Shown one piece after another: positions 1-12,609 of a DNA stretch of 12,609 nucleotides. The position numbers were made by a program, and so were the translations under genes. The stretch's first letter is position 1, and every line of letters begins with the position of its first letter. The notes beneath the pieces are model-generated. The model saw only the letters and a program-made list of their open reading frames with translations. It did not search any database and was not told the DNA's origin. The DNA is from Neptuniibacter sp. (lineage in GTDB: Bacteria > Pseudomonadota > Gammaproteobacteria > Pseudomonadales > Balneatricaceae). The DNA lies in assembly GCA_030149405.1 (NCBI GenBank), contig JASBRM010000370.1:1-12609 (forward strand). The letters are read 5' to 3'.

Positions 1-2385
1 CTCGGAGTCATTCCAAGTAGGGTACTTGCTAACCAGATCACGACGATTGGTATAAAGAGGCTCACGGTGTAGAGGTACTTTATCCGGGAAGGTCCAGACA
101 ACCGCACGTGCTTTCGCATTACCAAATGGAGCACAGCCGTGTTTGATAGCAACACGCTGGATGCCACCAGACAAGTCAGTTTTCCAGTTCTTACCTTCAG
201 CCAAAGCTTTTTCTTCAGCGGTCAGGTCGTTCCACCAACCCAGCTTCTTCAGTAGCTTGTCGCTGAACTCAGGGTAACCATTCTTGATATCAGAACCTTT
301 AGAGAAGGAATCTTCAGCCAGCAGGTTTACACCATCACGTTCTACACCAAAGCGGGCACGGAAGGTCAAGCCACCTTCAGCAACCGGTTTGCTTGTGTCG
401 TAAAGGATTGGTGTACCTGGGTGACCCTGCTCAGCAGTACCCCAGCATGGCCAAGGCATACCGTAGTATTCGTCACTCGCAGGACCACCTTCGCCTTTGA
501 GTGTATCGAAGTTGAAAGTGTGCCAGTTCTGCTGATGAAGTTTCAGGCGCTCAGGGCTCTGACCGGTGTAACCGATAGTCCACATGCCTTTGTTAATTTC
601 ACGAGTGATATCTTCTATCACTGGTTGACCGTTTTTGATCTCAATATTCTTGAACAGCTGCTTGTCGAAGCCCAGCTTCTTAGCAAACAGGTACATGATC
701 TCGTGGTCTGGTTTCGACTCAAACAGCGGTTCGATAACCTGATCACGCCATTGGATAGAACGGTTGGATGCTGTAACAGATCCGTAGGTTTCAAACTGAG
801 TACAAGCTGGGATCAGATAGACACCATCTTTACGATCAGACATTACAGCAGCGTGAGTTGGGTAAGGGTCTACGATAACCAGAGTATCCAGTTTCTCGAT
901 CGCCTTCTTCATCTCAGGACCACGGGTTTGAGAGTTCACGGCGTGACCCCAGCAAACCATAACGCGCAGATTGTCTTTCTGATCCATCTGAGCTTTATCT
1001 TCAAGAACACCATCGATCCAGCGGGAAACCGGGATACCTTTGTTGTTCATTGGCTTAAGCTTGCGGTAAACATCCTGGTCGAATCGGCTGGAAACCCACT
1101 CGTGATCCAGGTCCCAAACTTTTGACCAGTGCTTCCAGGCACCATCAGACAGGCCGTAATAACCAGGTAGCGTGTGGGAAAGAATACCCAAGTCCGTCGC
1201 ACCCTGTACGTTATCGTGGCCACGGAAAATGTTAGTACCACCACCGGAAGTACCCATGTTACCCAGAGCTAACATCAGGATGCAGTAAGCACGAGTGTTG
1301 TTGTTACCAGTAGTATGCTGCGTACCACCCATACACCAGATAACGGTGCCCGGACGGTTCTCAGCAAGCTCTTTAGCTGCACGACGCATTTGAGATTCTT
1401 TAACCCCAGTAACGTCTTCAACTTCCTGAGGTGTCCACTTTTTAACTTCTTCGCGGACTTCATCCATGCCGTATACACGCTGGCGGATAAACTCTTTATC
1501 TTCCCAGCCATTTTCAAAAATGTGCCACAGCAGACCCCAGATAAAGGCTACATCAGAACCCGGACGGATGCGGATGTATTCATTTGCGTGCGCAGCAGTA
1601 CGTGTGAAACGCGGATCAACACAGATGATGTGTGCCTTGTTACGCTCTTTAGCGCGGAAAATGTGCTGCAGAGATACAGGGTGTGCTTCAGCAGGGTTAG
1701 AACCGATCAGGATAATCGACTTAGCAAAGTGGATATCGTTGAACGAGTTAGTCATCGCACCGTATCCCCAAGTGTTGGCAACACCGGCTACAGTCGTTGA
1801 GTGACAGATACGCGCTTGGTGGTCTACGTTGTTCGTACCCCACATAGCAGCGTATTTACGGAACAGGTAAGCCTGCTCGTTGCTAAATTTCGCAGAACCT
1901 AACCAGTACACCGAATCTGGGCCAGACTCCTGACGAACCTGCATCATTTTGTCGCCAACTTCGTTGATGGCTTCATCCCAGGAAAGTTTTTTCCATTTGC
2001 CATCAACAAGTTTCATTGGGTATTTCAGACGACGGTCACCATGACCGTGTTCACGCAATGCTGCACCTTTAGCACAGTGCGCACCAGCGTTGAATGGGTG
2101 GTCAAATGCAGGTTCCTGACCTGTCCAAACACCATTCTGAACTTCAGCGTAAACACCACAACCTACAGAACAGTGTGAACAGATAGTACGCTTCACATCA
2201 GTTGGAGCTCCTGAGCTCACACCTGCTGCTTCTGCTTGCTGCATCATGCCTGGCGACATCATGCCTGCGGTTGCGACACCACCGGCTGCAATACCTGAAT
2301 TTTTCAGGAAGCGACGACGACTTAGCCCAAGTCCTGATGACTGAGAAGGAGCCGCTGGCTGATCGGATTTTTTCGTTAGTCTCAT
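1..2385 (-). CDS. fdhA: Formate dehydrogenase catalytic (alpha) subunit, Tat-exported, Cys-type; partial, C-terminal end outside window
   Basis: Molybdopterin (Mo/W-bisPGD) oxidoreductase that oxidises formate to CO2, expected in the periplasm with a ferredoxin-like beta and a cytochrome b gamma subunit, which would lie beyond the left edge. 795 codons are visible and the frame is open to base 1; the family is usually about 950 residues. Residues 22-28 (SRRRFLK) plus a hydrophobic stretch form a twin-arginine signal. Cys69, Cys72, Cys76 and Cys104 (CX2CX3C...C) bind the proximal 4Fe-4S cluster. The metal ligand position is Cys194 in ARICHSTT, codon TGT at 1804-1806, where E. coli FdnG has selenocysteine, followed by His195. 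The start ATG at 2383-2385 has a strong ribosome site (AGAGGTGAGG). The gene lies 20 nt after fdhX and is last visible in the operon. The nearby tupA suggests tungsten could be the metal, but the sequence cannot distinguish Mo from W. Confidence 0.95.
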   Translation of the reverse strand, partial: MRLTKKSDQPAAPSQSSGLGLSRRRFLKNSGIAAGGVATAGMMSPGMMQQAEAAGVSSGAPTDVKRTICSHCSVGCGVYAEVQNGVWTGQEPAFDHPFNAGAHCAKGAALREHGHGDRRLKYPMKLVDGKWKKLSWDEAINEVGDKMMQVRQESGPDSVYWLGSAKFSNEQAYLFRKYAAMWGTNNVDHQARICHSTTVAGVANTWGYGAMTNSFNDIHFAKSIILIGSNPAEAHPVSLQHIFRAKERNKAHIICVDPRFTRTAAHANEYIRIRPGSDVAFIWGLLWHIFENGWEDKEFIRQRVYGMDEVREEVKKWTPQEVEDVTGVKESQMRRAAKELAENRPGTVIWCMGGTQHTTGNNNTRAYCILMLALGNMGTSGGGTNIFRGHDNVQGATDLGILSHTLPGYYGLSDGAWKHWSKVWDLDHEWVSSRFDQDVYRKLKPMNNKGIPVSRWIDGVLEDKAQMDQKDNLRVMVCWGHAVNSQTRGPEMKKAIEKLDTLVIVDPYPTHAAVMSDRKDGVYLIPACTQFETYGSVTASNRSIQWRDQVIEPLFESKPDHEIMYLFAKKLGFDKQLFKNIEIKNGQPVIEDITREINKGMWTIGYTGQSPERLKLHQQNWHTFNFDTLKGEGGPASDEYYGMPWPCWGTAEQGHPGTPILYDTSKPVAEGGLTFRARFGVERDGVNLLAEDSFSKGSDIKNGYPEFSDKLLKKLGWWNDLTAEEKALAEGKNWKTDLSGGIQRVAIKHGCAPFGNAKARAVVWTFPDKVPLHREPLYTNRRDLVSKYPTWNDSE

Positions 2386-2405: not shown

Positions 2406-2609
2406 TCAGTTACGCAGTGTTTCGTAGAAGCTACGAACATGCTCAGTTTCTTTGTAACCGGAACCTTCCTGTTTCTCACCGGATTCAGCCGTAGTAACTT
2501 TTGCTTGAGCTGTGCCTGCTACGGCAACAGCTCCAGCAGCGGTACCTGCTAATCCCAGCTTCTTCAGAAAGCCACGGCGTCCTGTATCAGGCGTCTTGTG
2601 CTGGCTCAT
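2406..2609 (-). CDS. fdhX: FdhX-like small Tat-signal protein of formate dehydrogenase clusters
   Basis: A 67-residue protein matching the small 'formate dehydrogenase region TAT target' family found just upstream of fdhA in Shewanella-type clusters. Its function is not established. It has a twin-arginine motif (TGRRGFLKK, residues 9-17), an Ala/Gly-rich hydrophobic stretch to about residue 35 (ending AQA, a possible cleavage site) and the family C-terminus GYKETEHVRSFYETLR. It has no cysteines, so no metal cluster is expected. The start is chosen at the second ATG of an ATGATG pair (2609) because GGAG lies 7 nt upstream; ATG 2612 is equally possible. A longer frame from ATG 2630 (74 residues) lacks a ribosome site. 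It sits between the TorD-like gene (40 nt gap) and fdhA (20 nt gap). It may help FdhA export or assembly (inference). Confidence 0.88.
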   Translation of the reverse strand: MSQHKTPDTGRRGFLKKLGLAGTAAGAVAVAGTAQAKVTTAESGEKQEGSGYKETEHVRSFYETLRN

Positions 2610-2649
2610 CATCTTTCTCCGCAATTTCATCGCTTAGGGTTAAGCGTCC

Positions 2650-3297
2650 TTATTGTTGTTGTCCGCCCTCACGTGCGGCAGGTGATAACTGGAGGAACCA
2701 GTTATCTTCCTGTTGCGTAAATGCTTGACCAAGCAGGCCTACAGCGGTGTAGAACACAGCATGCTCAGCATTTTGCAAATCTTTAAAAAACTTTTCTGCC
2801 CAGCTCTGGATATGTTTCTGCCAGAACTGATGTTGTATCTCGTAGCTACGACCACTCAGAATAAGCATGCTCATTACTTCACACAGAGCAGCAATGTGAT
2901 CTTCCGGTTCTTTAACCTCTGGCTGGCGCTCAAAACCCAACAGTTCGAGGTCTTCACGCAAGATAACCAATGGTTTTTCCATCAGTGAGCCTGTCAGGTA
3001 CCAGCAACCGAAAGGCATAAGCTCACCGCGACCTACACCAATAAAAAGGTTGTGGTGTTCGTCATCTAATTGCTCATGGGCGCTGTGGCTGGCATGCAGT
3101 GCCAGGCTGCTCCAGGCTCTTGCCATTGGAGAGTCTTCGTCCTGATCGGGTTGGATCTCTTTAAGCCAGGTAAGCAGGTCCGGTTGTGGCGGCTGGCGCA
3201 GTAGTGTCGCCAGCAGTGCATAAATATCTGCACGTAGTTCATCCGTTTCCTGAAGGGCTGGAGCGGCGTTAATCATGTTCATAGTGTTTTGCTCCAT
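2650..3297 (-). CDS. TorD/DmsD-family redox enzyme maturation chaperone
   Basis: A 215-residue cytoplasmic, all-helical chaperone of the TorD family, which binds Tat signal peptides of molybdoenzymes and holds the precursor until cofactor insertion; here the client is most likely FdhA. Family signatures are HNLFIGVGRGELMPFGCWY (residues 82-100), the following LTGSLMEKPL, and EPEDHIAALCEVM (residues 130-142). The length is normal for the family. The start ATG at 3297 overlaps the stop of the polyferredoxin by one base (TAATG), pointing to translational coupling. An alternative in-frame ATG at 3282 has a GGAG 9 nt upstream and would give 210 residues. The gene precedes fdhX by 40 nt. The symbol fdhT is sometimes used for FDH chaperones in epsilonproteobacteria, but orthology is not shown here. 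Confidence 0.92.
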   Translation of the reverse strand: MEQNTMNMINAAPALQETDELRADIYALLATLLRQPPQPDLLTWLKEIQPDQDEDSPMARAWSSLALHASHSAHEQLDDEHHNLFIGVGRGELMPFGCWYLTGSLMEKPLVILREDLELLGFERQPEVKEPEDHIAALCEVMSMLILSGRSYEIQHQFWQKHIQSWAEKFFKDLQNAEHAVFYTAVGLLGQAFTQQEDNWFLQLSPAAREGGQQQ

Positions 3298-4946
3298 TAC
3301 AGTTCCAGTTGTTTTTCAGGATGTGCTGTGAGGTCGGTATAAATGTCTTGTACTCGACAGTCTTCACACATTTTCAGGCGGTTGATCGCAGGGCCTTCAA
3401 ATAAACGATGACCGCTTAATTTCTCGATCATTTTTTCAACCGTACTTCTTGGAGCAAAAGGTTTTCCACAACTGATACATTCAAAAGGTGCTTCAGAATG
3501 GATCTCAACAGAAACCGAACGCTGTTCAGTAAGAAGAAGCCGAGGCGTATAAGAGATGACCTTCTCTGGGCAGGCTGATTCACATAACCCACACTGAACA
3601 CAGTTCTGCTCAAGGAAATTTAGGGCCGGCTTTTCCCCACCATCAGTCAGGGCTTGGGTGGGACAAACTGCTACGCAGGACATACACAACGTGCAATCGT
3701 TTTGACTTAAGGTGACCTGACCGAAAGGGGAACCCGCCGGCAGGGCGAGGTAATTTGGGTGTTGCTGTTCGCTGTTAGCAGCCAGGTGGTCAATAGCCTT
3801 AAACAAAACTTCACGCTTGTTGCTGCTGTTAACCGTTGCCATTGGCTGAGTTACCAGAGGTTCGGCTTCATCTGCAATTGCTGTTAGTTGCTCAGCATTA
3901 ACCCGTTGTAATGAAGAGGAGCGCAATGCTAAACCGGAAAGAATTTGCTGAGTAAGCTTTATCTCTTTGTTTAACAGTACAGAGATGGATTCTGGTAGAT
4001 GGTTTTCTGTAAATAAAATAACTTGCGATGCACCGGATGCAAAGCAGGTAAGCCAGGTTTCCTGACCGGCCGCTGCAACTTCTTCTAATTGGACAGGGAT
4101 TATGTGTCCTGGTAAATCTTGTGGTACTGGCTGCTCTTTATCATGGAACAAAACAACCGGATTACTGCCATTCTGGGTGCGATATTCTTCCAGAGTGCGT
4201 TGTAAATACTCGTGTAAACGCATGGGTTGTGGCAGTGCATAACTGATTGCCCCGGTCGGACATGCCGTCGCACAACCACCTGCACCATGACACATATGAG
4301 GGTTAATACTCACCTCAATATTATCGCTGCTAATCGCATCAGCAGGGCAAACATCTAAACATCTTGTGCATCCGGTAAGACCGCGATTACTGTGCGCACA
4401 GATGTCGTTGTTGATTTGGAAATAACGTGGTTTCTCAAACTCGCCAATATAATCCGGCAATTCTTCCAGAACATTAGCCAGCTCGGGGCTGTTTGGATCA
4501 ACGTGGAAGTAACCGGCAGGAGCAAGCTCTGTTTGGAAAAGGTCATCGCTGCCAAGGTTCAGGATGAGATCGAAGAAAGGGCGGTTTTGTGCAATTTTTG
4601 AGAATTCACCCGTTTCACCATTTTGCTCAATCGTGACCTGAAATTGGCCCAGAAAACCTTTAACCGATTTGATAGTGGCTTGGTAGATTGTTTTGTCTTG
4701 CGCAGCCGCAAGCGCTTTCTCAAGATGATCTTCATCCATGTTCTGGATGGAATCGGTAACCAGCAGGGTTACACTCGGTAATGACGGCAGCTTTTCTGCA
4801 GCTAAACGGATCATATCTTCAGAACCTGTAATCAATAGATGACCATAGGTGCTAAAGCTCACCGTTGCCGGCGCCAGATTAATAGGCGGCGACACGCTTT
4901 TAAGCGCCGTATCACGGGCGATAATGTTCCTGTTGTTATTATTCAT
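3297..4946 (-). CDS. Multi-cluster 4Fe-4S ferredoxin-type protein of the formate dehydrogenase cluster
   Basis: A 549-residue soluble iron-sulfur protein, first gene of the operon reading into fdhA. Two ferredoxin regions are visible: Cys183, Cys193, Cys196, Cys200 with Cys219, Cys225, Cys229 (CPADAIS and CPTGAIS), and the classical pair Cys418/421/424/428 and Cys449/452/455/459. Near the C-terminus two more pairs, Cys490/493 and Cys527/530, could hold zinc or another cluster. No signal peptide or membrane helix is seen, so it should act in the cytoplasm. Homologues sit in the same position in Shewanella-type FDH clusters; the exact function is unknown, with electron transfer during maturation or from formate as possibilities. 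The start ATG has GAGG 6 nt upstream. The first about 170 residues contain no cysteines and I recognise no domain there. Expression is likely from the sigma-54 promoter at 5048-5063. Confidence 0.9.
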   Translation of the reverse strand: MNNNNRNIIARDTALKSVSPPINLAPATVSFSTYGHLLITGSEDMIRLAAEKLPSLPSVTLLVTDSIQNMDEDHLEKALAAAQDKTIYQATIKSVKGFLGQFQVTIEQNGETGEFSKIAQNRPFFDLILNLGSDDLFQTELAPAGYFHVDPNSPELANVLEELPDYIGEFEKPRYFQINNDICAHSNRGLTGCTRCLDVCPADAISSDNIEVSINPHMCHGAGGCATACPTGAISYALPQPMRLHEYLQRTLEEYRTQNGSNPVVLFHDKEQPVPQDLPGHIIPVQLEEVAAAGQETWLTCFASGASQVILFTENHLPESISVLLNKEIKLTQQILSGLALRSSSLQRVNAEQLTAIADEAEPLVTQPMATVNSSNKREVLFKAIDHLAANSEQQHPNYLALPAGSPFGQVTLSQNDCTLCMSCVAVCPTQALTDGGEKPALNFLEQNCVQCGLCESACPEKVISYTPRLLLTEQRSVSVEIHSEAPFECISCGKPFAPRSTVEKMIEKLSGHRLFEGPAINRLKMCEDCRVQDIYTDLTAHPEKQLEL

Positions 4947-5047: not shown

Positions 5048-5063
5048 AGCAAAGGGGGAACCA
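5048..5063 (-). promoter_or_regulatory. Sigma-54 (-24/-12) promoter of the polyferredoxin-torD-fdhX-fdhA operon
   Basis: The minus strand reads TGGTTCCCCCTTTGCT: GG and GC are separated by exactly 10 nt, with a full TGG and a full TTGCT against the consensus TGGCACG-N4-TTGCW. Transcription would start near 5037, leaving a leader of about 90 nt before the ATG at 4946. A palindromic activator site lies about 85 nt upstream (centre 5141). Confidence 0.75.
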
Positions 5064-5133
5064 TAAATGGCGAAATAAAAGCGACGACTAATAGGGATAG
5101 ATCGTATGCTTTGTGCTCTTTTGAATTTTGCTT

Positions 5134-5148
5134 GGGACAATTTGTCTG
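5134..5148. promoter_or_regulatory. Palindromic activator site (UAS), copy 1
   Basis: GGGACAATTTGTCTG contains the dyad GACAA-T-TTGTC. It matches the sites at 6287 and 11776 and lies about 85 nt upstream of the sigma-54 promoter at 5048-5063, a usual distance for an NtrC-type activator. The window's own response regulator is the natural candidate (inference). Confidence 0.65.
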
Positions 5149-5180
5149 GGTGTGCGGTGTTGATGTGTCAAATCGATACT

Positions 5181-5714
5181 TCAGCCATCAAGGTCCGCAT
5201 CACCAAGGTCGTCCTCATCAACCTCCTGATCTTCCTCGGTAAACTGAACTTGCCTCTCATCAGCCTCAATTACCGATTCTTTCTCAGACTCCTCGCTTCC
5301 CTCATCAGCAAGCTGCTCTTTGAAATCTTCTTTCTGCTCCTCCACCCAATTCCGCAATTTGGACGCCACTGCTTCTGTTAGCTCAGGCATTTTGCTGAAG
5401 TCTTCGTCGTAATCATTTAAACCATCACGCAGATTGAACTCAGGTAAACGGAAGAGTTTTTGTAACGCGAGGTTTCTCAGTTCCTCGCTAACCCCGGATG
5501 AAAAGAACTGACTGAAATCAGAGGTTTCATTCAGTGTTTCAACATCAGGCATATCTTCATCAGTGAGAACTGTTGCTTCCGGTTCATCCTGAGTGGATAA
5601 CGTCGTTTCATCGGGCTCAATGGTCGTTGGTTCTGATTCAACTGGCTCCGGGTTATTCTGTTGTTCCGCTTTGCGCTGCGCCCATCGGGATAGAAAAGAT
5701 GTTTTATCTTCCAC
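5181..5714 (-). CDS. DUF3306 protein of formate dehydrogenase cluster
   Basis: A 177-residue protein of the DUF3306 family, of unknown function, found with DUF3305 next to fdhD/fdhA in proteobacterial FDH clusters. The N-terminal FLSRWAQRK (residues 7-15) and the block LQKLFRLPEFNLRDGLNDY followed by DEDF (about 86-107) are the family marks. Between them lies a low-complexity acidic linker rich in Glu, Pro and Thr, and the tail from about residue 120 is strongly acidic, ending DEDDLGDADLDG. There is no signal peptide, membrane segment or cysteine. The start is chosen at GTG 5712-5714 because AAGGGG lies 7 nt upstream and FLSRW then falls near the N-terminus, as usual in the family; this overlaps DUF3305 by 11 nt. 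A longer frame from ATG 5756 would add a basic extension that is probably not real. Confidence 0.85.
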   Translation of the reverse strand: MEDKTSFLSRWAQRKAEQQNNPEPVESEPTTIEPDETTLSTQDEPEATVLTDEDMPDVETLNETSDFSQFFSSGVSEELRNLALQKLFRLPEFNLRDGLNDYDEDFSKMPELTEAVASKLRNWVEEQKEDFKEQLADEGSEESEKESVIEADERQVQFTEEDQEVDEDDLGDADLDG

Positions 5715-6147
5715 TGCTGCGCCCCTTGCCACGTTTTTTCTTTTTCTTACCTTCATCAATTAACTCGCCGTGAATACCTAGGTAGGTATCAATCCAGCAC
5801 TGAATTGCTGGAGGCATTAGAGTTTCAAGAAGCTGGTGTTCGCCATCCATATATGAAGCAGCGTCATCCTGGCTGGCAGTAATATGAACGGGGGAATAGT
5901 CACCGCTGGCTTCGTCTTGATTACAAAGAACGAATAAATGCGGAGATTCGGAATTCAAGTTGAAGCGATACGCAGTACGTTCATCCTTGTGCAACTCAAG
6001 GGTCAGATTATGACCTTCATCGCTTGATTGATCGGGTAACAGGGCGGAGATCTTCCAGCGATCTGTGTCCCAGCCATTAACGTTTACCGTTTCTGAATGC
6101 AGGCACACTTGTAAGGGCCAATGTTCAGTATTTTTTTCGTTCATCAT
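5704..6147 (-). CDS. DUF3305 protein of formate dehydrogenase cluster
   Basis: A 147-residue DUF3305-family protein. The match rests on the opening WPLQVCLHSE, the pattern YRFNLNSESPHLFVLC (about 60-75), VHITASQDDAASYMDG (about 87-102) and the closing LMPPAIQCWIDTYLGIHGE. Its function is not known; the family occurs paired with DUF3306 in FDH clusters, so a role in assembly or activity of the enzyme is inferred from context only. It has no signal peptide or membrane segment. The C-terminus is very basic (GKKKKKRGKGRSSGR), in contrast to the acidic tail of DUF3306. The start may be either of two adjacent ATGs (6147 or 6144), with AAGG 6 nt before the first. It is first gene of a two-gene unit read from the sigma-54 promoter at 6195-6210. 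Confidence 0.85.
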   Translation of the reverse strand: MMNEKNTEHWPLQVCLHSETVNVNGWDTDRWKISALLPDQSSDEGHNLTLELHKDERTAYRFNLNSESPHLFVLCNQDEASGDYSPVHITASQDDAASYMDGEHQLLETLMPPAIQCWIDTYLGIHGELIDEGKKKKKRGKGRSSGR

Positions 6148-6194
6148 TTTTAGCCTTAAAGTTTTGGCTGTTTATTATTCTGAAACGGAGGCTT

Positions 6195-6210
6195 TGCAAA
6201 GCTTAGGCCA
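6195..6210 (-). promoter_or_regulatory. Sigma-54 promoter of the DUF3305-DUF3306 operon
   Basis: The minus strand reads TGGCCTAAGCTTTGCA, with TGGC and TTGCA intact and the required 10 nt between GG and GC. The start of transcription would fall near 6184, 37 nt before the ATG. The -12 half lies inside a perfect 12-bp palindrome, GCTTTGCAAAGC (6191-6202). The activator site at 6287-6301 is about 92 nt upstream. Confidence 0.75.
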
Positions 6211-6255
6211 CTGCCCGAAATACGGTATCTCTGGGCAAGGTCTAAAGCGGCGTAG

Positions 6256-6277
6256 GGCCAAAAGTATTCAGTTGGCC
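6256..6277. promoter_or_regulatory. Inverted repeat GGCCAA-N10-TTGGCC in the divergent promoter region
   Basis: A perfect 6-bp inverted repeat with a 10-nt spacer lies between the minus-strand sigma-54 promoter and the activator site. The geometry suits a dimeric regulator and it could be the operator of the HTH/tungstate-binding-like regulator encoded downstream, or chance. No second copy was found in the window. Confidence 0.3.
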
Positions 6278-6286
6278 TGCGTAAAT

Positions 6287-6301
6287 GGGACATTTTGTCC
6301 C
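6287..6301. promoter_or_regulatory. Palindromic activator site (UAS), copy 2, shared by two divergent sigma-54 promoters
   Basis: GGGACATTTTGTCCC is a 15-bp dyad with perfect 6-bp arms (GGGACA/TGTCCC). It lies about 70 nt upstream of the fdhD promoter and about 92 nt upstream of the DUF3305 promoter, so one site could serve both directions. It is the best match to the repeated motif in the window. Confidence 0.7.
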
Positions 6302-6356
6302 TGCTGCCTATGGGGGATATTCACTTAATGTTGGATTTAGTAAGACTTGAGTTGTC

Positions 6357-6372
6357 TGGAACAGTATTTGCT
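6357..6372 (+). promoter_or_regulatory. Sigma-54 promoter of the fdhD-HTH regulator operon
   Basis: TGGAACAGTATTTGCT fits TGGCACG-N4-TTGCW with only two mismatches at fixed positions and the correct 10-nt GG to GC spacing. Transcription would start near 6384, giving a short leader of about 24 nt before the fdhD ATG at 6408. Confidence 0.8.
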
Positions 6373-6407
6373 GAAAGCTCAGTATCAGATTGCGAGTAAG
6401 GTGCTCT

Positions 6408-7280
6408 ATGAATACTGCCAACCAAGAACTGACGCTCAGTAAAGCTGCTGCTGAGCTTACAGAAACCGTTCAGGTGCTAGATGAACGTGGGGAACCGAGG
6501 GAGTTGCAGATTGCCTGTGAGCGTCCGCTAACGATCTATCTGAATAAAAGAGAGATAGTGACGTTGATGACGCTTGGGGGTGACCCGGAAGCTTTGGTCT
6601 TGGGATACCTACGGAATCAGGGTTTTATTAATTCCATGGATGATCTCGTGGCTATTCAGGTTGATTGGGAGGTTGAGGCGGCAGCTGTAGTAACGCGTGA
6701 GCAACCTCAGGATCTTGAAGAAAAACTTCAGCAGCGCACAGTGACGACCGGCTGTGGACAAGGAACAATGTTCGGTAACCTTATGGATAAGCTAGAGGAA
6801 GTATCTTTACCCGATGTCGAGATTCAGCAAAGTATGGTGTATGCCCTGTTGGATAATCTGAATCTTCACAACGAAACCTATAAAAATGCTGGCGCAGTAC
6901 ACGGTTGTGCTATCTGCGAAGGCAGTGAAGTGGTGGCTTTTGTTGAGGATGTTGGCAGGCATAATGCGGTGGATACGTTGGCAGGGCGTATGTGGCTGGA
7001 TGGCATCACTGATGAAAACAAGATTTTTTATACCACCGGGCGACTGACATCAGAGATGGTGATCAAAGTGGCCCAAATGGGGATTCCGGTTTTGCTGTCG
7101 CGTTCTGGAGTAACTCAAATGGGCTTGGCTCTGGCCAAAGAGTTGGGGATTACTATGTTGGCCCGTGCAAAAGGTAAGCATTTCTTGCAGTTCAGCGGCG
7201 GTGAATCGTTACTGAGAGATGCTATTCCGGAAGTAAAATATGAGCGCAGTGTAAAAAAAGGCAGGAGGAATGAGGCGTGA
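6408..7280 (+). CDS. fdhD: Formate dehydrogenase accessory sulfurtransferase FdhD
   Basis: A 290-residue FdhD-family protein, which in E. coli passes sulfur from IscS to the Mo-bisPGD cofactor and is essential for FDH activity. Family motifs are ERPLTIYLN (38-46), TTGCGQGT (113-120) and EDVGRHNAVD (180-189), then TTGRLTSEMV (209-218) and SRSGVT (231-236). In the sulfur-carrying loop only Cys116 is present: the usual CXXC second cysteine is replaced (CGQG). A different CXXC, Cys167-Cys170 in HGCAICEG, lies just before the EDVGRHN motif. The start ATG 6408 has AAGGTG upstream; an in-frame TTG at 6390 would add six residues and lies too close to the predicted transcript start. The stop overlaps the next gene's GTG (GTGA). 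Confidence 0.95.
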   Translation: MNTANQELTLSKAAAELTETVQVLDERGEPRELQIACERPLTIYLNKREIVTLMTLGGDPEALVLGYLRNQGFINSMDDLVAIQVDWEVEAAAVVTREQPQDLEEKLQQRTVTTGCGQGTMFGNLMDKLEEVSLPDVEIQQSMVYALLDNLNLHNETYKNAGAVHGCAICEGSEVVAFVEDVGRHNAVDTLAGRMWLDGITDENKIFYTTGRLTSEMVIKVAQMGIPVLLSRSGVTQMGLALAKELGITMLARAKGKHFLQFSGGESLLRDAIPEVKYERSVKKGRRNEA

Positions 7281-8185
7281 GTGATTTCAATAATGCCTTT
7301 CTGAATGTCAGGCAGCTTTCAGAGTATCTGCACCTGAATGAGAAAAAGGTGTATGCGATGGCTGCGGAAGGGGAAATTCCCGCAACAAAGCTTACCGGTA
7401 AGTGGCTGTTCCCCAAGTCACTGGTAGACCGTTGGTTGTTGGAAAGCTGTCATGGTGGAATTATGGCTGATCGGCTTTTGCTGGCTGGCAGTGATGACCC
7501 TTTATTGCAGGCGGCTGCAAACAGGTTAACTCAAAAGCTTAAAACCAAGGCATTGTTCAGCTACACGGTAACCGGGACAAAACTTGGGTTGGACTTGCTG
7601 GGGCAGGGGCATGCAGATGCCTGTGCAATTCACTGGGGCAGGGCGGAGGAAAGTGAAGTCAGACATCCGGCTTTGCTGCAACGTTATTCTCAGTGTAAGC
7701 ACTGGGTGCTGGTACATCTTTTTTGCCGTAGTCAGGGGTTAATTGTACGTGGGGCGGATCAAATGCGTTTTGAAACCACGGCAGATGCGCTTGAGTGTAG
7801 CACCCGCTGGGTTGTCCGTCAGGAAGGTGCAGGCTCACAACGTTTTCTTAATGAATGGTTAGCAGGCCAGGCGGTACCATTTGATAGCCTCACAGTAGGT
7901 CATACAGCATTCTCTGAACGCGAAGTAGCCTCTCTGATTGCCAAAGGGGAAGCGGATATCGGTCCGGGGACACTCAGCGCGGCGCGGGAGTTTGGTCTGG
8001 GGTTCATTTCAGTTTGTAATGAAAGCTTTGACTTGGTTGTTCCAAGAAATGTTTATTTCAGGAATCTGTTACAGCAGCTCTTTGAGTTCCTGCAAAGTGT
8101 AGAGGGTATCGAACTGGCAAGCCGGCTTCAGGGCTATGATCTGACCCATTGCGGCAGATTGGTCTGGAGCTCTGAGTCAGAATAG
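7277..8185 (+). CDS. Excisionase-type HTH regulator with periplasmic-binding-like (molybdate/tungstate) domain
   Basis: A 302-residue cytoplasmic regulator. Residues 9-54 (LNVRQLSEYLHLNEKKVYAM, then GKWLFPKSLVDRWL) are a MerR/excisionase-like winged helix. From about residue 65 to 285 there is a substrate-binding fold resembling the molybdate-binding domain of COG1910: LAGSDDPLLQ, DACAIHW, EGAGSQRFLNEWL, and GEADIGPGTLSAAREFGLGF followed by ISVCNESFDLVVPR. No signal peptide is present, so the binding domain should sense an intracellular oxyanion. Beside fdhD and tupA, tungstate or molybdate is the likely ligand (inference). The GTG start has GGAGG 8 nt upstream and overlaps the fdhD stop by 4 nt, so the two are co-translated. 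Its stop is 5 nt from the convergent kinase stop, with no clear terminator between. The DNA target is unknown; dyads at 6256 and 12012 are candidates. Confidence 0.85.
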   Translation: MSDFNNAFLNVRQLSEYLHLNEKKVYAMAAEGEIPATKLTGKWLFPKSLVDRWLLESCHGGIMADRLLLAGSDDPLLQAAANRLTQKLKTKALFSYTVTGTKLGLDLLGQGHADACAIHWGRAEESEVRHPALLQRYSQCKHWVLVHLFCRSQGLIVRGADQMRFETTADALECSTRWVVRQEGAGSQRFLNEWLAGQAVPFDSLTVGHTAFSEREVASLIAKGEADIGPGTLSAAREFGLGFISVCNESFDLVVPRNVYFRNLLQQLFEFLQSVEGIELASRLQGYDLTHCGRLVWSSESE

Positions 8186-8190
8186 TTTGC

Positions 8191-10335
8191 TTAACTTAGT
8201 TCTTCAGCTTGGTTGCTTACCGCTCGACGGTTAACTCGTTCTGCGGCAGCCAAGCCTTCAAGAATGCCTACTTCACTGCTACCACTTGAAAGGTCAGCCT
8301 CTTGCAATAAATACACGGTGAATTGCGTGCCTTTGCCTTCCTCTGATTGCACTTTAATATCACCACCATGGCGACGAATAATGCTGTAACTAACAGAAAG
8401 ACCAAGACCTGTGCCGCTTTTCTTCGTGGTGAAGAATGGATCGAAGATCTTCTCTAAATGCTCCCGGGTAATCCCTTTGCCCTCATCAATTACGCTGATG
8501 GTTGCGCCTTTGAGGTTTCCATCTTCAAACCAATCGGCCGTTTTAATTTCAACTTGTCCGGGACCTTCTAGTGCATGGGAGGCGTTAAGAATCAGATTAA
8601 CTAATACTTGTTGAACCTGTTGATAATTCACCTCTACTAACGATGTGGCTTCATAGCTTTTCTTAATGGTGACTTTTTGCTGCTCAAGGGCATGAGACAC
8701 GAGCAGCAAGGTATCATCTATGATCTGGTTCACCAGATGGTGCTCATAGCTTTCAATGTAATGACCGGGGCGACTGTATTGCAGCAGGTTGTTGATCAAT
8801 GAACGAATACGGTAAACCTGTTGAATGACCATATCCACTTCTCCGCGAGCTGGCTCTACTGCATCGCCCAGCTCAGCAACCAGCAAGTCCATATTGCCCA
8901 GAATGACGGCGGCTGGGTTATTAATCTCATGAGCGATACCGGCAGTGAGCTCACCTAAGACAGCCAGTTTTTCTTTATCAAGCAGTTGTTGTCGAGTGTT
9001 TTTTAGCAGGCGAATATGTTCTTTAAGCGCTTCGGTACGACGACGAAGTGAGCGTGTCCTTTGGTCTACAACAGCTTCAAGTTGATCGTTAGCCAGGCGG
9101 ATTTGCTGCTCTCGTTGCTCCAGCAGGTTCAGCATAACATCGAACTGCTTTGCCAAGTCAACCAGTTCATCAGAGCTATCTAGCTTACCTATACGAGGAT
9201 GCATTGAGCCTTCATGAACAGAGGTTACGACGGAATGAATCTTGTTTAGTGGCTTCAACAGCAGGCGTGTGTGATTGGTTACAACCACTGCGGAAACCAG
9301 CATGATGAGTAAAATCAGGGTTCCTGACTCAATAAGGGTTTTGTAATAAATCTGAGAGAATGGAGCTTCGGTGAAACCTGCGTAGATCATTCCAATTTTT
9401 TTATTATTGAAGTCCAGCAAAGGCTTATAGGCAGAGATATACCAATCGTTTACTACGAAGGCCCTGTCGATCCAGGTTTCCCCTTGTAACAATACCCGTT
9501 TGCGAACTTCAGCCGATACTCGTGTGCCGATGGCACGTTCTTTCAAGCTTAGGTCACGTTTTCCCTGGGTTATGCTGGAAACATCCTGAGGCACGTTGGT
9601 ACTGATTCGCACATCGTCCATAAAGAGAGTCACAGTACCAATGCCGCCTTCGGGGAGGCTGCCTTTGCCGTATACCAGATCACGAATACGGTCTACGGCA
9701 GTGGTTGTATTATTAAGGATAATGCCAGAGTCAAGAACACCGATCAGTTCGCCAAAATCATCTGTTACAGGAACTAGTGCTCTCAGCACCATGGCTCTTT
9801 CTTCCACGATTCTATCAGTCGGAACGGCCCTGGGAGTGTCAATCAGGTTGATTTTAGCGCGTTCAGCCAGACCAAAATTGATGCTGTTTAACTCTTCAGC
9901 ATTCAGTATTGAAATGCCGTTTAGGTATTCTTTATCAAGAAGCCGAGGAATCAACGTGTTGAAATTGGGTTCGTTAAGAGAGGTTAGATCTTCTGTTTCT
10001 ATATACCTTAAGAAATCCAGAGAACGACTGCGCTTTACTTCGAGGAGTTGAACGATTAGCTCGCGGTTGTCACCTAGTTGTAAGTTAGTACGGAACTCAA
10101 AACCGTTGGCAAGCTGTTCCAGAGTGTCAATCTGTTCCTGCTGCATGAATTTAAGAGTACCGTTGGCTACGGATAGATCTGCGCTTACCTTCATGTACAA
10201 CTGACGGTCGGTGTAACTGGATGTCCAATATGCGGACATAACCGCAAAGCCTAAGGCTGTTAAGGCCAGAGGCAGAAGTGTGAGAAGAAGTAACTTATGC
10301 CTTAGGGTGTTTTTAAGCCCAAAACTAAAACTCAT
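8191..10335 (-). CDS. Cache-domain membrane sensor histidine kinase
   Basis: A 714-residue inner-membrane kinase, partner of the adjacent response regulator. The order is TM1 (about 14-36), a periplasmic part of about 300 residues, TM2 (about 338-354), HAMP (about 355-408), a coiled coil to about 455, HisKA and HATPase. The end of the periplasmic part ([15 protein letters not shown], then [16 protein letters not shown]) resembles Cache_3-Cache_2 sensor domains, which bind small organic acids and similar ligands. The phospho-acceptor is His469 in GIAHEINNP; the N box includes Asn584; the G boxes are DEGKGI (617-622) and GTGLGLS (641-647), with FDPFFTTK between. The start ATG 10335 overlaps the regulator stop (ATGA); a GTG at 10350 would add five residues. 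Formate, or another electron-donor signal, is a plausible ligand from context only. Confidence 0.92.
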
Positions 10336-11714
10336 GCGGTCTGCTCGCACACATCCTGATCATCTAATGAGGCCCAGACGGCAAGTTTTCGATCCAAAGT
10401 TTTCCTGGATACTCCGAGTTCCCTTGCTGCAGAAGACTTGTTGCCGTGGTGTTGATCCAAAGTAAGCAAAATGTGATGTTTTTCCACTTCCTCAAGAGAC
10501 CATCCGCTGAAGTTGTTACAAGGTTTGCAGTCCTCTTCTTGCTCCCTGAAGTAGTCTGCTGGAAGTTTTCCAAGAAGGATGCAACGTTCTATCAGGTTCT
10601 TAAGTTCCCGTATGTTGCCTGGCCAGCTATAGGACTGCATGGCCTTGAGGTCATCATGATTAAATGGAATGGTTGGCAGACCTAATTCACGTGAGAGCTT
10701 TGATGAAAAATGATGAATGAGATCTGGCAGGTCTTCTCGTCTGTCGCGCAGAGGTGGCAGGGTGATGCTCAATACGTTTAAACGATAATAAAGATCTTCC
10801 CGGAAGCGATTATTCGCCACTTCATCTTTCAGGTGGCGGTTAGTTGCTGCAATGATTCTTACATCTACGCTGGTTTCCTGTTCGCTACCTACCGGACGAA
10901 CGGCTTTTTGTTCTAACGCTCTTAACAGTTTTGCCTGCATCAGCAGGGGCATTTCACCGATCTCATCAAGGAAAAGCGTGCCTCCGCTGGCAAAGTTAAA
11001 CAGGCCATCGCGGGCTTTATTAGCGCCGGTGAAAGCGCCTTTGGTATGTCCAAACAGTTCCGCTTCCAGTAGATCGGGTGAGATAGCTCCACAATTAAGC
11101 GGTACAAAAGCCCCTGATCTGCCACTTAGTTGGTGCAGCATTCTGGCGGCCAGTTCTTTACCCGTTCCTGATTCACCTTCAATCAAAACGGCTGAAGGGG
11201 TTTTGGCCACACGGTAAATTACATCATGTACCTGTTGGATCGAGGGGCTGCTTCCAATCATATCCGTAGTCGGGAATGCATTTTCGACTTCCCGCCTGAG
11301 TACAAAATTGGAACGTGTCATAGCACGTCTTTCCAGGCAGCGATCTACCGCATTCATCATCTGTTCTAGTCGGAATGGCTTCAATATGAAATCAGAAGCG
11401 CCGGCTCGTAGAGCCTTGATTGCAGTTTCTAGATCCGCGTAGGCAGTCATGAAGATAATATCGCTGCTACGTTGGCTATCCTCAATGGCTTCATGCCATT
11501 CCATACCAGAGCGGCCCGGAAGTTTGATATCAACGATCAACAGGTCAAAATGACATCGCTTACGTAATTCTTCTGCTTCTTCGACGCTACTTGCAACCTC
11601 CACTAGGGCAAAACGTTTGACAAGCGCTTTGTGAAGAAAGCTACGCATTCCCATCTCGTCATCAACAATCAATACGGAAACGGCTGGTAAAACAGGTGAG
11701 CTATTCGTGTCCAT
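10332..11714 (-). CDS. NtrC-family sigma-54-dependent response regulator
   Basis: A 460-residue transcriptional activator. The receiver domain (about 12-130) has Asp18/Asp19, phospho-acceptor Asp62 (VDIKLPG), Thr90 and Lys112 (LKPF). The AAA+ domain (about 152-380) has Walker A GESGTGKE (180-187), GAFTGA (226-231), which contacts sigma-54, Walker B GGTLFLDEIGE (Asp250, Glu251) and the arginine-finger segment RFREDLYYRL (303-312). The C-terminal Fis-type helix-turn-helix is NKSSAARELGVSRKTLDRKL (425-444). All activating parts are intact. It is transcribed ahead of its kinase with a 4-nt overlap. Its ribosome site is weak. The repeated palindromes in the window, each beside a sigma-54 promoter, are its likely targets, and one overlaps its own presumed promoter. 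Confidence 0.95.
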   Translation of the reverse strand: MDTNSSPVLPAVSVLIVDDEMGMRSFLHKALVKRFALVEVASSVEEAEELRKRCHFDLLIVDIKLPGRSGMEWHEAIEDSQRSSDIIFMTAYADLETAIKALRAGASDFILKPFRLEQMMNAVDRCLERRAMTRSNFVLRREVENAFPTTDMIGSSPSIQQVHDVIYRVAKTPSAVLIEGESGTGKELAARMLHQLSGRSGAFVPLNCGAISPDLLEAELFGHTKGAFTGANKARDGLFNFASGGTLFLDEIGEMPLLMQAKLLRALEQKAVRPVGSEQETSVDVRIIAATNRHLKDEVANNRFREDLYYRLNVLSITLPPLRDRREDLPDLIHHFSSKLSRELGLPTIPFNHDDLKAMQSYSWPGNIRELKNLIERCILLGKLPADYFREQEEDCKPCNNFSGWSLEEVEKHHILLTLDQHHGNKSSAARELGVSRKTLDRKLAVWASLDDQDVCEQTA

Positions 11715-11754
11715 TAGCTATCAATCTCACAAAATTACATTAAGCGAAACATAG

Positions 11755-11782
11755 ATTGTAGTTGATTAAGCTTGATGGACAA
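11755..11782 (-). promoter_or_regulatory. Possible sigma-70 promoter of the response regulator-kinase operon
   Basis: The minus strand has TTGTCC (11777-11782), a 16-nt spacer and TACAAT (11755-11760, one mismatch to TATAAT). Transcription would start near 11748, about 34 nt before the ATG. The -35 box is weak and lies within the activator palindrome, so the bound regulator would be expected to block it. No -24/-12 promoter faces this gene. Confidence 0.4.
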
Positions 11783-11790
11783 ATTGTCTC
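11776..11790. promoter_or_regulatory. Palindromic activator site (UAS), copy 3
   Basis: TGGACAAATTGTCTC carries the perfect dyad GACAA-A-TTGTC (11778-11788) and aligns with the sites at 5134 and 6287. It lies about 198 nt upstream of the tupA sigma-54 promoter and overlaps the presumed -35 box of the divergent response regulator gene. Confidence 0.6.
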
Positions 11791-11805
11791 ACTCTTAATC
11801 ATTAG

Positions 11806-11820
11806 AGGACATTATGACTC
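11806..11820. promoter_or_regulatory. Weaker tandem copy of the activator site
   Basis: AGGACATTATGACTC matches 12 of 15 positions of the motif GGGACAWWTTGTCYC. Its centre is exactly 30 bp from the centre of the site at 11776, about three helical turns, so both sites face the same side of the helix, as is common for cooperative NtrC-type binding. Confidence 0.45.
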
Positions 11821-11973
11821 AAAATAGACCTTGATTCCGATAAGACTATTGTCCCGTTTTGAACCGTTTTTTGCGATTTTGGAGTATTTGGCAAGTATTT
11901 CGATTTTAATTCCATAGGTTTTATGCAGTTTATCCTGTTCGCATTGGGTCAAATTGGCTAGTAAGGTTTTGTT

Positions 11974-11989
11974 TGGCATTTAATTTGCT
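11974..11989 (+). promoter_or_regulatory. Sigma-54 promoter of tupA
   Basis: TGGCATTTAATTTGCT has TGGCA and TTGCT with exactly 10 nt between GG and GC. The predicted transcript starts near 12000 and carries a leader of about 78 nt before the tupA ATG at 12078. Confidence 0.8.
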
Positions 11990-12011
11990 CAATCGTCAGA
12001 AGCGAAGCTAT

Positions 12012-12040
12012 TACCCCAACCAAGAAGGAAGGTTGAGGTA
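12012..12040. repeat. Inverted repeat in the tupA leader (hairpin or operator)
   Basis: TACCCCAACC (12012-12021) and GGTTGAGGTA (12031-12040) pair at 9 of 10 positions across a 9-nt loop. The element begins about 12 nt after the predicted sigma-54 transcription start. It could be an mRNA stem-loop or a DNA operator for a tungstate-responsive regulator. It is too small for the known molybdenum-cofactor riboswitch and has no U tract like a terminator. Confidence 0.45.
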
Positions 12041-12077: not shown

Positions 12078-12609
12078 ATGAAAAACTGGCTCTCTGCAGT
12101 TGTCACTATTTCCGCACTGACTATGAGCTCTCTATCGGCTGTGGCTGAAGAGCAGATTATTCGATTGGCAACTACGACCAGTACCTACAATTCAGGGCTA
12201 TTAGATAGCCTGCTTCCAGTTTTTGAAAAACAGTATGACGCCAAAGTGCATGTGATTGCCGTCGGTACAGGCAAAGCATTGCGCATGGGACAGGCAGGTG
12301 ATGTAGATGTTGTTATGACACACGCTCCAAAAGCCGAGAAAGCGTTTGTTGAAGCGGGTTATGGTGTTCAGCCACGCAGTGTAATGTATAACGATTTCGT
12401 TATTGTTGGCCCAGAGCAGGATCCTGCGGGTGTTAAAGGCTCAAACAATGTAGCAGATGCCCTGCAGAAAATAGCGGCTAAAAACTCAGAGTTTATCTCC
12501 CGTGGCGATGACTCCGGTACCCATAAAAAAGAACTGTCCCTTTGGTCTGTTACTGAATCTGGCAACACCTTCGCAAATTACAAAGAAGTGGGTCAGGGCA
12601 TGGGTAAAG
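12078..12609 (+). CDS. tupA: Tungstate ABC transporter periplasmic binding protein, TupA-type; partial, C-terminal end outside window
   Basis: The first 177 codons of a TupA-family protein (full length about 270) that captures tungstate in the periplasm for the TupBC transporter, whose genes would lie beyond the right edge. Residues 1-23 form a Sec signal peptide (cleavage after AVA). Family motifs follow: ATTTSTYNSGLLDSLLPVF (from residue 31), VIAVGTGKALRMGQAGDVDV (about 63-82), HAPKAEKAFV, VMYNDFVIVGPEQDPAG and ISRGDDSGTHKKELSLW (to about 155). The TTTST and SRGDDSGT segments are the usual oxyanion-binding loops and distinguish it from ModA. ATG 12078 has AAAGGA 8 nt upstream. Transcription is likely from the sigma-54 promoter at 11974-11989, in common with the FDH genes. 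Confidence 0.93.
   Translation, partial: MKNWLSAVVTISALTMSSLSAVAEEQIIRLATTTSTYNSGLLDSLLPVFEKQYDAKVHVIAVGTGKALRMGQAGDVDVVMTHAPKAEKAFVEAGYGVQPRSVMYNDFVIVGPEQDPAGVKGSNNVADALQKIAAKNSEFISRGDDSGTHKKELSLWSVTESGNTFANYKEVGQGMGK

Follow-up and report, generated by a model that had tools for sequence, protein, structure and literature searches.

Results

The window analysed here, that is, the whole stretch of 12,609 nucleotides at positions 1..12,609 of contig JASBRM010000370.1 (assembly GCA_030149405.1, Neptuniibacter sp.), carries genes for a formate dehydrogenase (FDH), a putative tungstate importer and a two-component regulatory system. It is contig C306 (12.6 kb) of a 2.9-Mb draft genome (G000) in 397 contigs, which is estimated to be 96% complete. 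An earlier note, made from the sequence alone, had proposed sigma-54-dependent control of the FDH and tup genes by this two-component system, and our analysis supports that interpretation with the qualifications given below. The gene of the sensor histidine kinase (8191..10350, minus strand) shares 19 overlapping bases with that of an NtrC-type response regulator (10332..11714, minus strand). The fdh operon, also on the minus strand, begins with a multi-4Fe-4S cluster protein (3297..4946; PF00037 and related families), followed by a TorD/NarJ-type chaperone (2650..3297; PF02613) and, after a small intervening gene, the catalytic subunit gene fdhA (1..2385). The other genes are those of a DUF3305 protein (5704..6147, minus strand; PF11749) and a DUF3306 protein (5181..5759, minus strand; PF11748), fdhD (6390..7280, plus strand), an overlapping gene for a TaoR-like regulator (7277..8185, plus strand) and tupA, which encodes a tungstate-type ABC substrate-binding protein (12078..12608, plus strand). 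The 3′ end of fdhA is truncated by the contig end, and tupA is likewise truncated at the opposite end; because both genes run past the contig ends, the completeness of the regulon cannot be shown.

Four predicted sigma-54 promoters lie in the window, at the places where they had been reported before: TGGTTCCCCCTTTGCT upstream of the fdh operon (5048..5063, minus strand), TGGCCTAAGCTTTGCA upstream of DUF3305-DUF3306 (6195..6210, minus strand), TGGAACAGTATTTGCT upstream of fdhD (6357..6372, plus strand) and TGGCATTTAATTTGCT upstream of tupA (11974..11989, plus strand). Their geometry, previously given as TGG-N10-TTGCW, was wrong and is in fact TGG-N8-TTGCW (GG-N10-GC); the literal N10 pattern was rejected, as it fits none of the four promoters and only one other place. 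These promoters are situated 55–183 bases downstream of palindromes resembling GGGACA-N3-TGTCCC, which we predict to be activator sites. The position of the promoters relative to the palindromes was correctly described in the earlier note, which had placed each of the four promoters downstream of a copy of the motif; there are three strong palindromes, not four, one of which serves two divergent promoters. The sequence GGGACAWWTTGTCYC occurs exactly at 6287..6301 (GGGACATTTTGTCCC, a perfect palindrome common to the DUF3305-DUF3306 and fdhD promoters) and with one mismatch at 5134..5148 (GGGACAATTTGTCTG, kept in near relatives) and 11776..11790 (TGGACAAATTGTCTC, the conserved site of tupA). A second, weaker palindrome, AGGACATTATGACTC, lies 30 bases further at 11806..11820, and the same 30-base spacing is found in near relatives. 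With up to three mismatches, GGGACAWWTTGTCYC has 8 matches in the window against 1.78 expected, a number reached by none of 200 shuffles, and of the four places within one mismatch of it in the whole draft genome, three are inside the window. The −24/−12-like strings alone showed no excess in the window (65 at ≤3 mismatches, compared with 66.8 in shuffles).

Are these pairs of sites conserved? An alignment of the sensor halves of seven kinases (A1) gave at least 586 matching stretches in a collection of named genomes, and the best 80 loci were examined; relatives of the system occur in Vibrio, Photobacterium, Shewanella, Chromohalobacter, Neptuniibacter and Thiodiazotropha symbionts. Of these 80 loci, 77 contain the regulator, 54 TupA, 41 FDH-type genes and 36 the TaoR-like gene, and 69 have tupA or FDH genes. 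When only the 54 loci with a length of 16 kb or more are counted, TupA was present in 45, FDH genes in 31 and either one in 52, and FDH genes lying just beyond a locus edge, as in Nitrincola, escape this counting. We defined a pair as a palindrome (≤2 mismatches) that starts 40–260 bases before a −24/−12 site (≤2 mismatches), and considered upstream regions of at least 250 bases. Such a pair is found upstream of tupA in 41/54 cases, DUF3305 in 15/22, fdhD in 9/31 and the 4Fe-4S gene (Fer4) in 9/30, compared with 5 of 831 other open reading frames (ORFs) in the same loci. Because these background ORFs are mechanical and include some cofactor genes (moaA), the chance rate is probably overstated. 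A −24/−12 site (≤2 mismatches) is present in 53 of the 54 related tupA upstream regions. When the promoter was restricted to one mismatch at most, 62 pairs were found in 43 loci, compared with 0.9 on average and never more than 4 when 40 scrambled half-sites were used; the ORF downstream of these strict pairs was unlabelled for 7 and not found for 5. The start-to-start distance from palindrome to promoter at the 4Fe-4S gene is 84–85 nt in eight of the nine pairs, and 85 nt in the window. A lack of conservation of the motif and the −24/−12 elements at homologous loci had been named in advance as grounds for abandoning the proposal; the frequency of pairs at tupA relative to the background, together with the scrambled controls, instead demonstrates that both are conserved.

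Gene-by-gene inspection of 32 sequences (the window and 31 hand-picked loci), to which Nitrincola was added, placed the FDH-side sites mostly in Neptuniibacter, Neptunomonas, Amphritea, Marinobacterium, Nitrincola and Ferrimonas, and sites of the 4Fe-4S gene also in the Vibrio/Photobacterium loci L124–L126. At greater distance, sites are mostly missing from fdhD and the 4Fe-4S gene. Judged from this sequence comparison, the tup-side sites are the conserved core, and the FDH-side sites persist mostly among nearer relatives.

The sites also follow the kinase. A search with the sensor half across 293 genomes of the order returned seven strong matches (E ≤ 4.5e-85, including the window), with 50 genomes below 1e-5. 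The exact composite site occurs in three of the 293 genomes, all of them among the seven kinase-positive ones (Fisher p = 8e-6); in this strict form it is absent from the other four of the seven. Within the genus (nine genomes, five kinase-positive), the perfect palindrome is found in four of the five genomes with the kinase and in none of the four without it. In the fifth kinase-positive genome, G294, a palindrome ~1 kb away from the TaoR-like gene deviates by one mismatch and is flanked on each side by a −24/−12-like site. Near-perfect palindromes elsewhere (G299 at 814955, G300 contig 104, G000 contig 262, G293 contig 10 and G299 at 1046740) were taken as chance occurrences. None of these five has a −24/−12 site (≤2 mismatches) at a suitable distance and on the suitable side; of the three whose ORF context was determined, one has a transporter-like gene on either side and two fall within unrelated ORFs. 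In locus L051 (genome G213), a kinase-regulator pair of the same family (41% and 54% identity, respectively) stands in a locus without tup or FDH genes, and the genome has no TaoR-like gene.

The response regulator possesses all the domains of the NtrC type. Its REC domain contains the phosphoacceptor Asp in LIVDIKLP, and it is followed by a Sigma54_activat (AAA+) domain with Walker motifs and GAFTGA and by a Fis-type HTH, which confirms the intact GAFTGA-type activator described in the earlier note. No match to GAF domains, the sensor domains of FhlA, was found in the regulator. It remains below the NCBIfam equivalog cut-offs of AtoC (392 vs 714 bits), NtrC (389.9 vs 558.6) and ZraR (345.6 vs 760).

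The kinase has two hydrophobic segments (residues ~18–41 and 334–365) that flank a periplasmic region of ~290 aa, and its HAMP, HisKA and HATPase domains are accompanied by H (HEINNP), N, G1 and G2 boxes. The periplasmic region ends in an sCache_3_3 domain at residues 212–336 (PF17202, 95.9 bits vs 28.8), in agreement with the previous designation of the protein as a Cache-domain kinase; the ~170 periplasmic residues before this module (42–211) have no Pfam match.

What does this kinase sense? We aligned 49 sensor halves, comprising that of the window and 48 hand-picked from the 80 loci (alignment A2). Searched against the PDB, the profile matched 8py1 and 8py0, both solved chemoreceptor domains, with E = 9.7e-5, the similarity covering 73 and 81 positions within the Cache module, and these were the only PDB matches at E ≤ 0.01. 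Three residues in the alignment are nearly invariant: R248 (49/49), T251 (49/49) and T276 (48/49). They align with R142, T145 and T158 of the chemoreceptor PacF, T276 following a longer loop, and the +3/+16 spacing from the Arg in PacF also occurs in both PDB sequences. In PacF, changes at these three positions are reported to have altered formate binding (PMC12501870), and formate binding is also reported for an sCache_3_3 domain from the gut that carries the residues in question (PMC12415202). The sequence of the module therefore points to formate as the likely ligand of the kinase. The earlier proposal that the signal is read outside the cytoplasm is strengthened by this periplasmic domain of the formate type, with its 8py0/8py1 match and its conserved Arg, Thr and Thr.

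The predicted target genes are concerned with FDH, its metal and its cofactor. The product of fdhA, a molybdopterin FDH catalytic subunit (PF00384/PF04879), carries a twin-arginine translocation (Tat) signal (SRRRFLK), is of the Cys type (ARICHS) and has TIGR01591 as its top NCBIfam match (430.2 bits, below the cut-off of 666.25). FdhD, a cofactor sulfurtransferase, matches PF02634 (265.3 bits vs 27.2) and falls slightly under the cut-off of TIGR00129 (139.1 vs 140.9 bits). The sole NCBIfam match of the truncated TupA of the window is NF041772 (158.5 bits vs a cut-off of 400), and the protein contains TTTS and RGDDSGT, in line with TTTS and RGDxSGT, which we take to be TupA motifs. Downstream of tupA, the close relative L052 has permease and ATPase genes and a mobA-mobB fusion. 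The TupA model is again the only NCBIfam match of the full-length L052 protein (228.7 bits, cut-off 400); the TupB model comes second after a generic permease family (185.4 vs 320 bits) and the TupC model fifteenth among ABC ATPase families (115.3 vs 400 bits). The assignment to tungstate uptake made previously rests on TupA matches below the cut-off and on the motifs, and all TupABC equivalog cut-offs were missed; we infer that tungstate is the probable substrate, tungsten being favoured over molybdenum.

The same sites precede other cofactor genes in the relatives, namely moaA (L067, L069), mobB (L079, L091, L104) and mobA (L127, L109); the families are above cut-off for L067, L079, L127 and L109, and the others were identified by reading the sequence. 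In locus L121, in which no tup or FDH genes turned up, tandem palindromes 31 bases apart precede an MFS transporter, and a three-mismatch −24/−12 site was recognized by eye ~50 bases past the second palindrome (stretch 12218–12403). The best NCBIfam match of this transporter is the L-lactate transporter SfMCT (326.4 vs 320 bits), followed, below cut-off, by an oxalate/formate antiport family. What the targets have in common is a connection with the use of small carboxylates and with the metal cofactor that FDH requires.

Discussion

How might these elements work together? We put at about 0.7 the probability that an NtrC-type two-component system sensing formate in the periplasm, as suggested by the genes and sites described above, controls the FDH, metal uptake and cofactor genes. 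In this model, formate would bind the membrane-proximal Cache module of the kinase in the periplasm, and the kinase would phosphorylate the NtrC-type response regulator, which in turn would bind the GGGACA-N3-TGTCCC-like palindromes and open the sigma-54 promoters. We infer activation rather than repression, and four transcription units would be activated: the fdh operon, DUF3305-DUF3306, fdhD with the TaoR-like gene, and the tup operon. The substrate would thereby call up the enzyme, its metal (probably tungsten) and the cofactor machinery together. A broader proposition has a somewhat better than even chance of being correct, namely, that this is a widespread gammaproteobacterial regulon, in which periplasmic formate acts through a formate-Cache kinase and sigma-54 on FDH, tungstate import and the molybdopterin guanine dinucleotide (MGD) and sulfuration machinery, with a TaoR-like second check in the same operon.

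Several observations weigh against this model. Across the genome, the palindrome (≤2 mismatches) was found 10 times on the forward and 13 times on the reverse strand, against 25 and 18 for the reversed control, and only the site at 6287 is within one mismatch of the symmetric pattern GGGACANNNTGTCCC. One-mismatch palindromes in the genomes of the genus were likewise no commoner than the reversed control. Because neither the palindrome nor the promoter strings are in excess alone, it is on their pairing, position and conservation that the case rests. Sister species are included among the 80 loci, which cannot be treated as independent, and the FDH-side pair is absent from most of them (fdhD 22/31, Fer4 21/30). 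Neither of the rpoN (sigma-54) domain families was found in the draft genome of the window itself; since rpoN is present in seven of the eight congeners, its absence is likely a gap in the draft assembly. As for the ligand, 8py0 and 8py1 are reportedly the formate-bound sCache structures of Monteagudo-Cascales et al. in 2025. The RxxT...GT signature was compared with formate-type Cache domains, and the formate specificity of the kinase is a prediction. Formate binding in PacF is reported for the membrane-distal module (PMC12501870), unlike the module of the kinase, which is membrane-proximal with ~170 residues ahead of it. In the formate receptor Atu0526, R115 is reported to be essential for formate chemotaxis, and R115A binds formate more tightly in vitro (PMC8698456). 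Since the R115A protein loses chemotaxis and not binding, the Arg is not a simple marker of binding. The match of the L121 transporter to a lactate family also counts among these points.

That match leads to the possibility that the same circuit answers to another signal, which might be lactate or another small carboxylate, tungstate/molybdate, or the condition of TupA. This is unlikely, even though tupA, at 45/54 of the longer loci as opposed to 31/54 for FDH genes, is the most constant partner found for the kinase, and Cache_3 domains bind assorted organic acids; the near invariance of the three residues that match the PacF formate site, together with 8py0 and 8py1 as the sole PDB matches, favours formate, and it would be surprising if a signal of metal shortage also induced the metal enzyme. 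It is also conceivable that the palindrome is the site of the TaoR-like regulator, which would read the metal or cofactor status, while the two-component system would act elsewhere or via other sites. The TaoR-like gene does sit in the fdhD operon, a full-length match to it is present in 21 of 24 hand-picked kinase-positive genomes (drawn from the 80 loci), it comes and goes jointly with the kinase in the nine genomes of the genus, and TaoR is reportedly a controller of tup and tungstoenzyme genes. We nevertheless regard this alternative as quite improbable. In the three genomes without a full TaoR-like gene (L064, L066 and L126), tup keeps its palindromes (2–3 mismatches) and a one-mismatch −24/−12 site; among TaoR-like-positive genomes of the order, the exact composite site occurs in three of the six that have the kinase and in none of the 23 that do not; and the enhancer-like spacing from the sigma-54 promoters suits an AAA+ activator. 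From the tup sites kept without a TaoR-like gene and the composite site found only alongside the kinase, the response regulator is favoured over the TaoR-like protein and is probably the one that binds the palindromes. Could the sigma-54-like and palindrome-like strings simply be meaningless? The promoter-like strings are not enriched in the window and the palindromes are not in genome-wide excess, but the pairing, its conservation, the scrambled-site controls and the co-occurrence with the kinase oppose chance so strongly that we consider it hardly credible.

Both the parts of a sigma-54 two-component system and the way in which they work are well known; what appears to be undescribed is the combination of periplasmic formate sensing with control over FDH, metal uptake and cofactor genes. 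No description of this circuit was found in the literature searched, which mostly excluded subscription papers, and its absence from print is thus not shown. In Escherichia coli, FhlA is bound by formate through its GAF domains in the cytoplasm, and no kinase is involved. The likeness to the FhlA/formate hydrogenlyase regulon lies in the formate-induced activation of FDH genes by a sigma-54 AAA+ activator; the system presented here would instead rely on a kinase in the membrane, whose Cache domain is periplasmic, and on an activator of the REC type, and would serve an exported FDH plus metal uptake. AtoS-AtoC and ZraS-ZraR resemble it in the domain order of both partners, and AtoC and AtoS are the best NCBIfam matches of the regulator and the kinase, below the equivalog cut-offs; the sensor domain is different, and the binding palindrome and the targets would differ as well. 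With the chemoreceptors PacF, Atu0526 and those of 8py0/8py1, it shares the RxxT...GT signature and the profile similarity noted above, yet here the module belongs to a histidine kinase with its long periplasmic segment in front. FhlA had been cited in the earlier note as the known sigma-54 control of formate genes, which holds, except that it is not the only reported link. An RpoN promoter is reported to precede the fdn genes of Geobacter sulfurreducens, with fdhD in the same operon (PMC2725144). That system shares the sigma-54 promoter, and the text consulted names no cognate two-component system, palindrome or tungstate importer.

For a two-component system of which no description was found, our study puts forward a likely signal, the DNA site that its regulator would bind and the genes that would be controlled, and it ties an electron donor to the supply of the rare metal that its enzyme needs. 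The formate-responsive promoters are offered as testable predictions. If the model is true, it would be a case of substrate-driven provisioning of a metalloenzyme with its metal and cofactor, with a TaoR-like metal regulator as a second check.

The TaoR-like gene in the fdhD operon was overlooked in the earlier note. It encodes an excisionase-type HTH (PF12728) and a PBP-like domain (PF12727), which fit the definition of the TaoR family, and on the basis of this architecture we take the protein to be akin to the TaoR family of tungstate-linked regulators, which was reportedly described as such by Rajeev et al. in 2019. TaoR, which reportedly controls tup and tungstoenzyme genes, is a one-component regulator, whereas here a gene of the same architecture appears to be a target or partner of the sigma-54 two-component system. 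A TaoR-like gene (E ≤ 1e-30) is present in 29 of the 293 genomes of the order.

Some further features of the locus and its relatives deserve mention. The small gene between torD and fdhA (2406..2630, minus strand) was recognized as an ORF; its product is Tat-signal-like, and homologues occupy the same position in relatives. The genes of the uncharacterized proteins DUF3305 and DUF3306 (5181–6147) are served by a predicted sigma-54 promoter and a palindrome of their own, and a weak match (20.9 bits) to the NCBIfam model of MobA with a DUF3305 domain hints at a role in the cofactor. VC1522 of Vibrio cholerae is a sigma-54-type regulator divergent from tup-like genes, and it appears in published expression and AphA-binding lists. 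In the Nitrincola loci L060, L061 and L076, a gene recognized by eye as moeA lies downstream of the kinase gene, as does, in L060 and L076, one recognized in the same way as moaB, which provides another link to molybdopterin.

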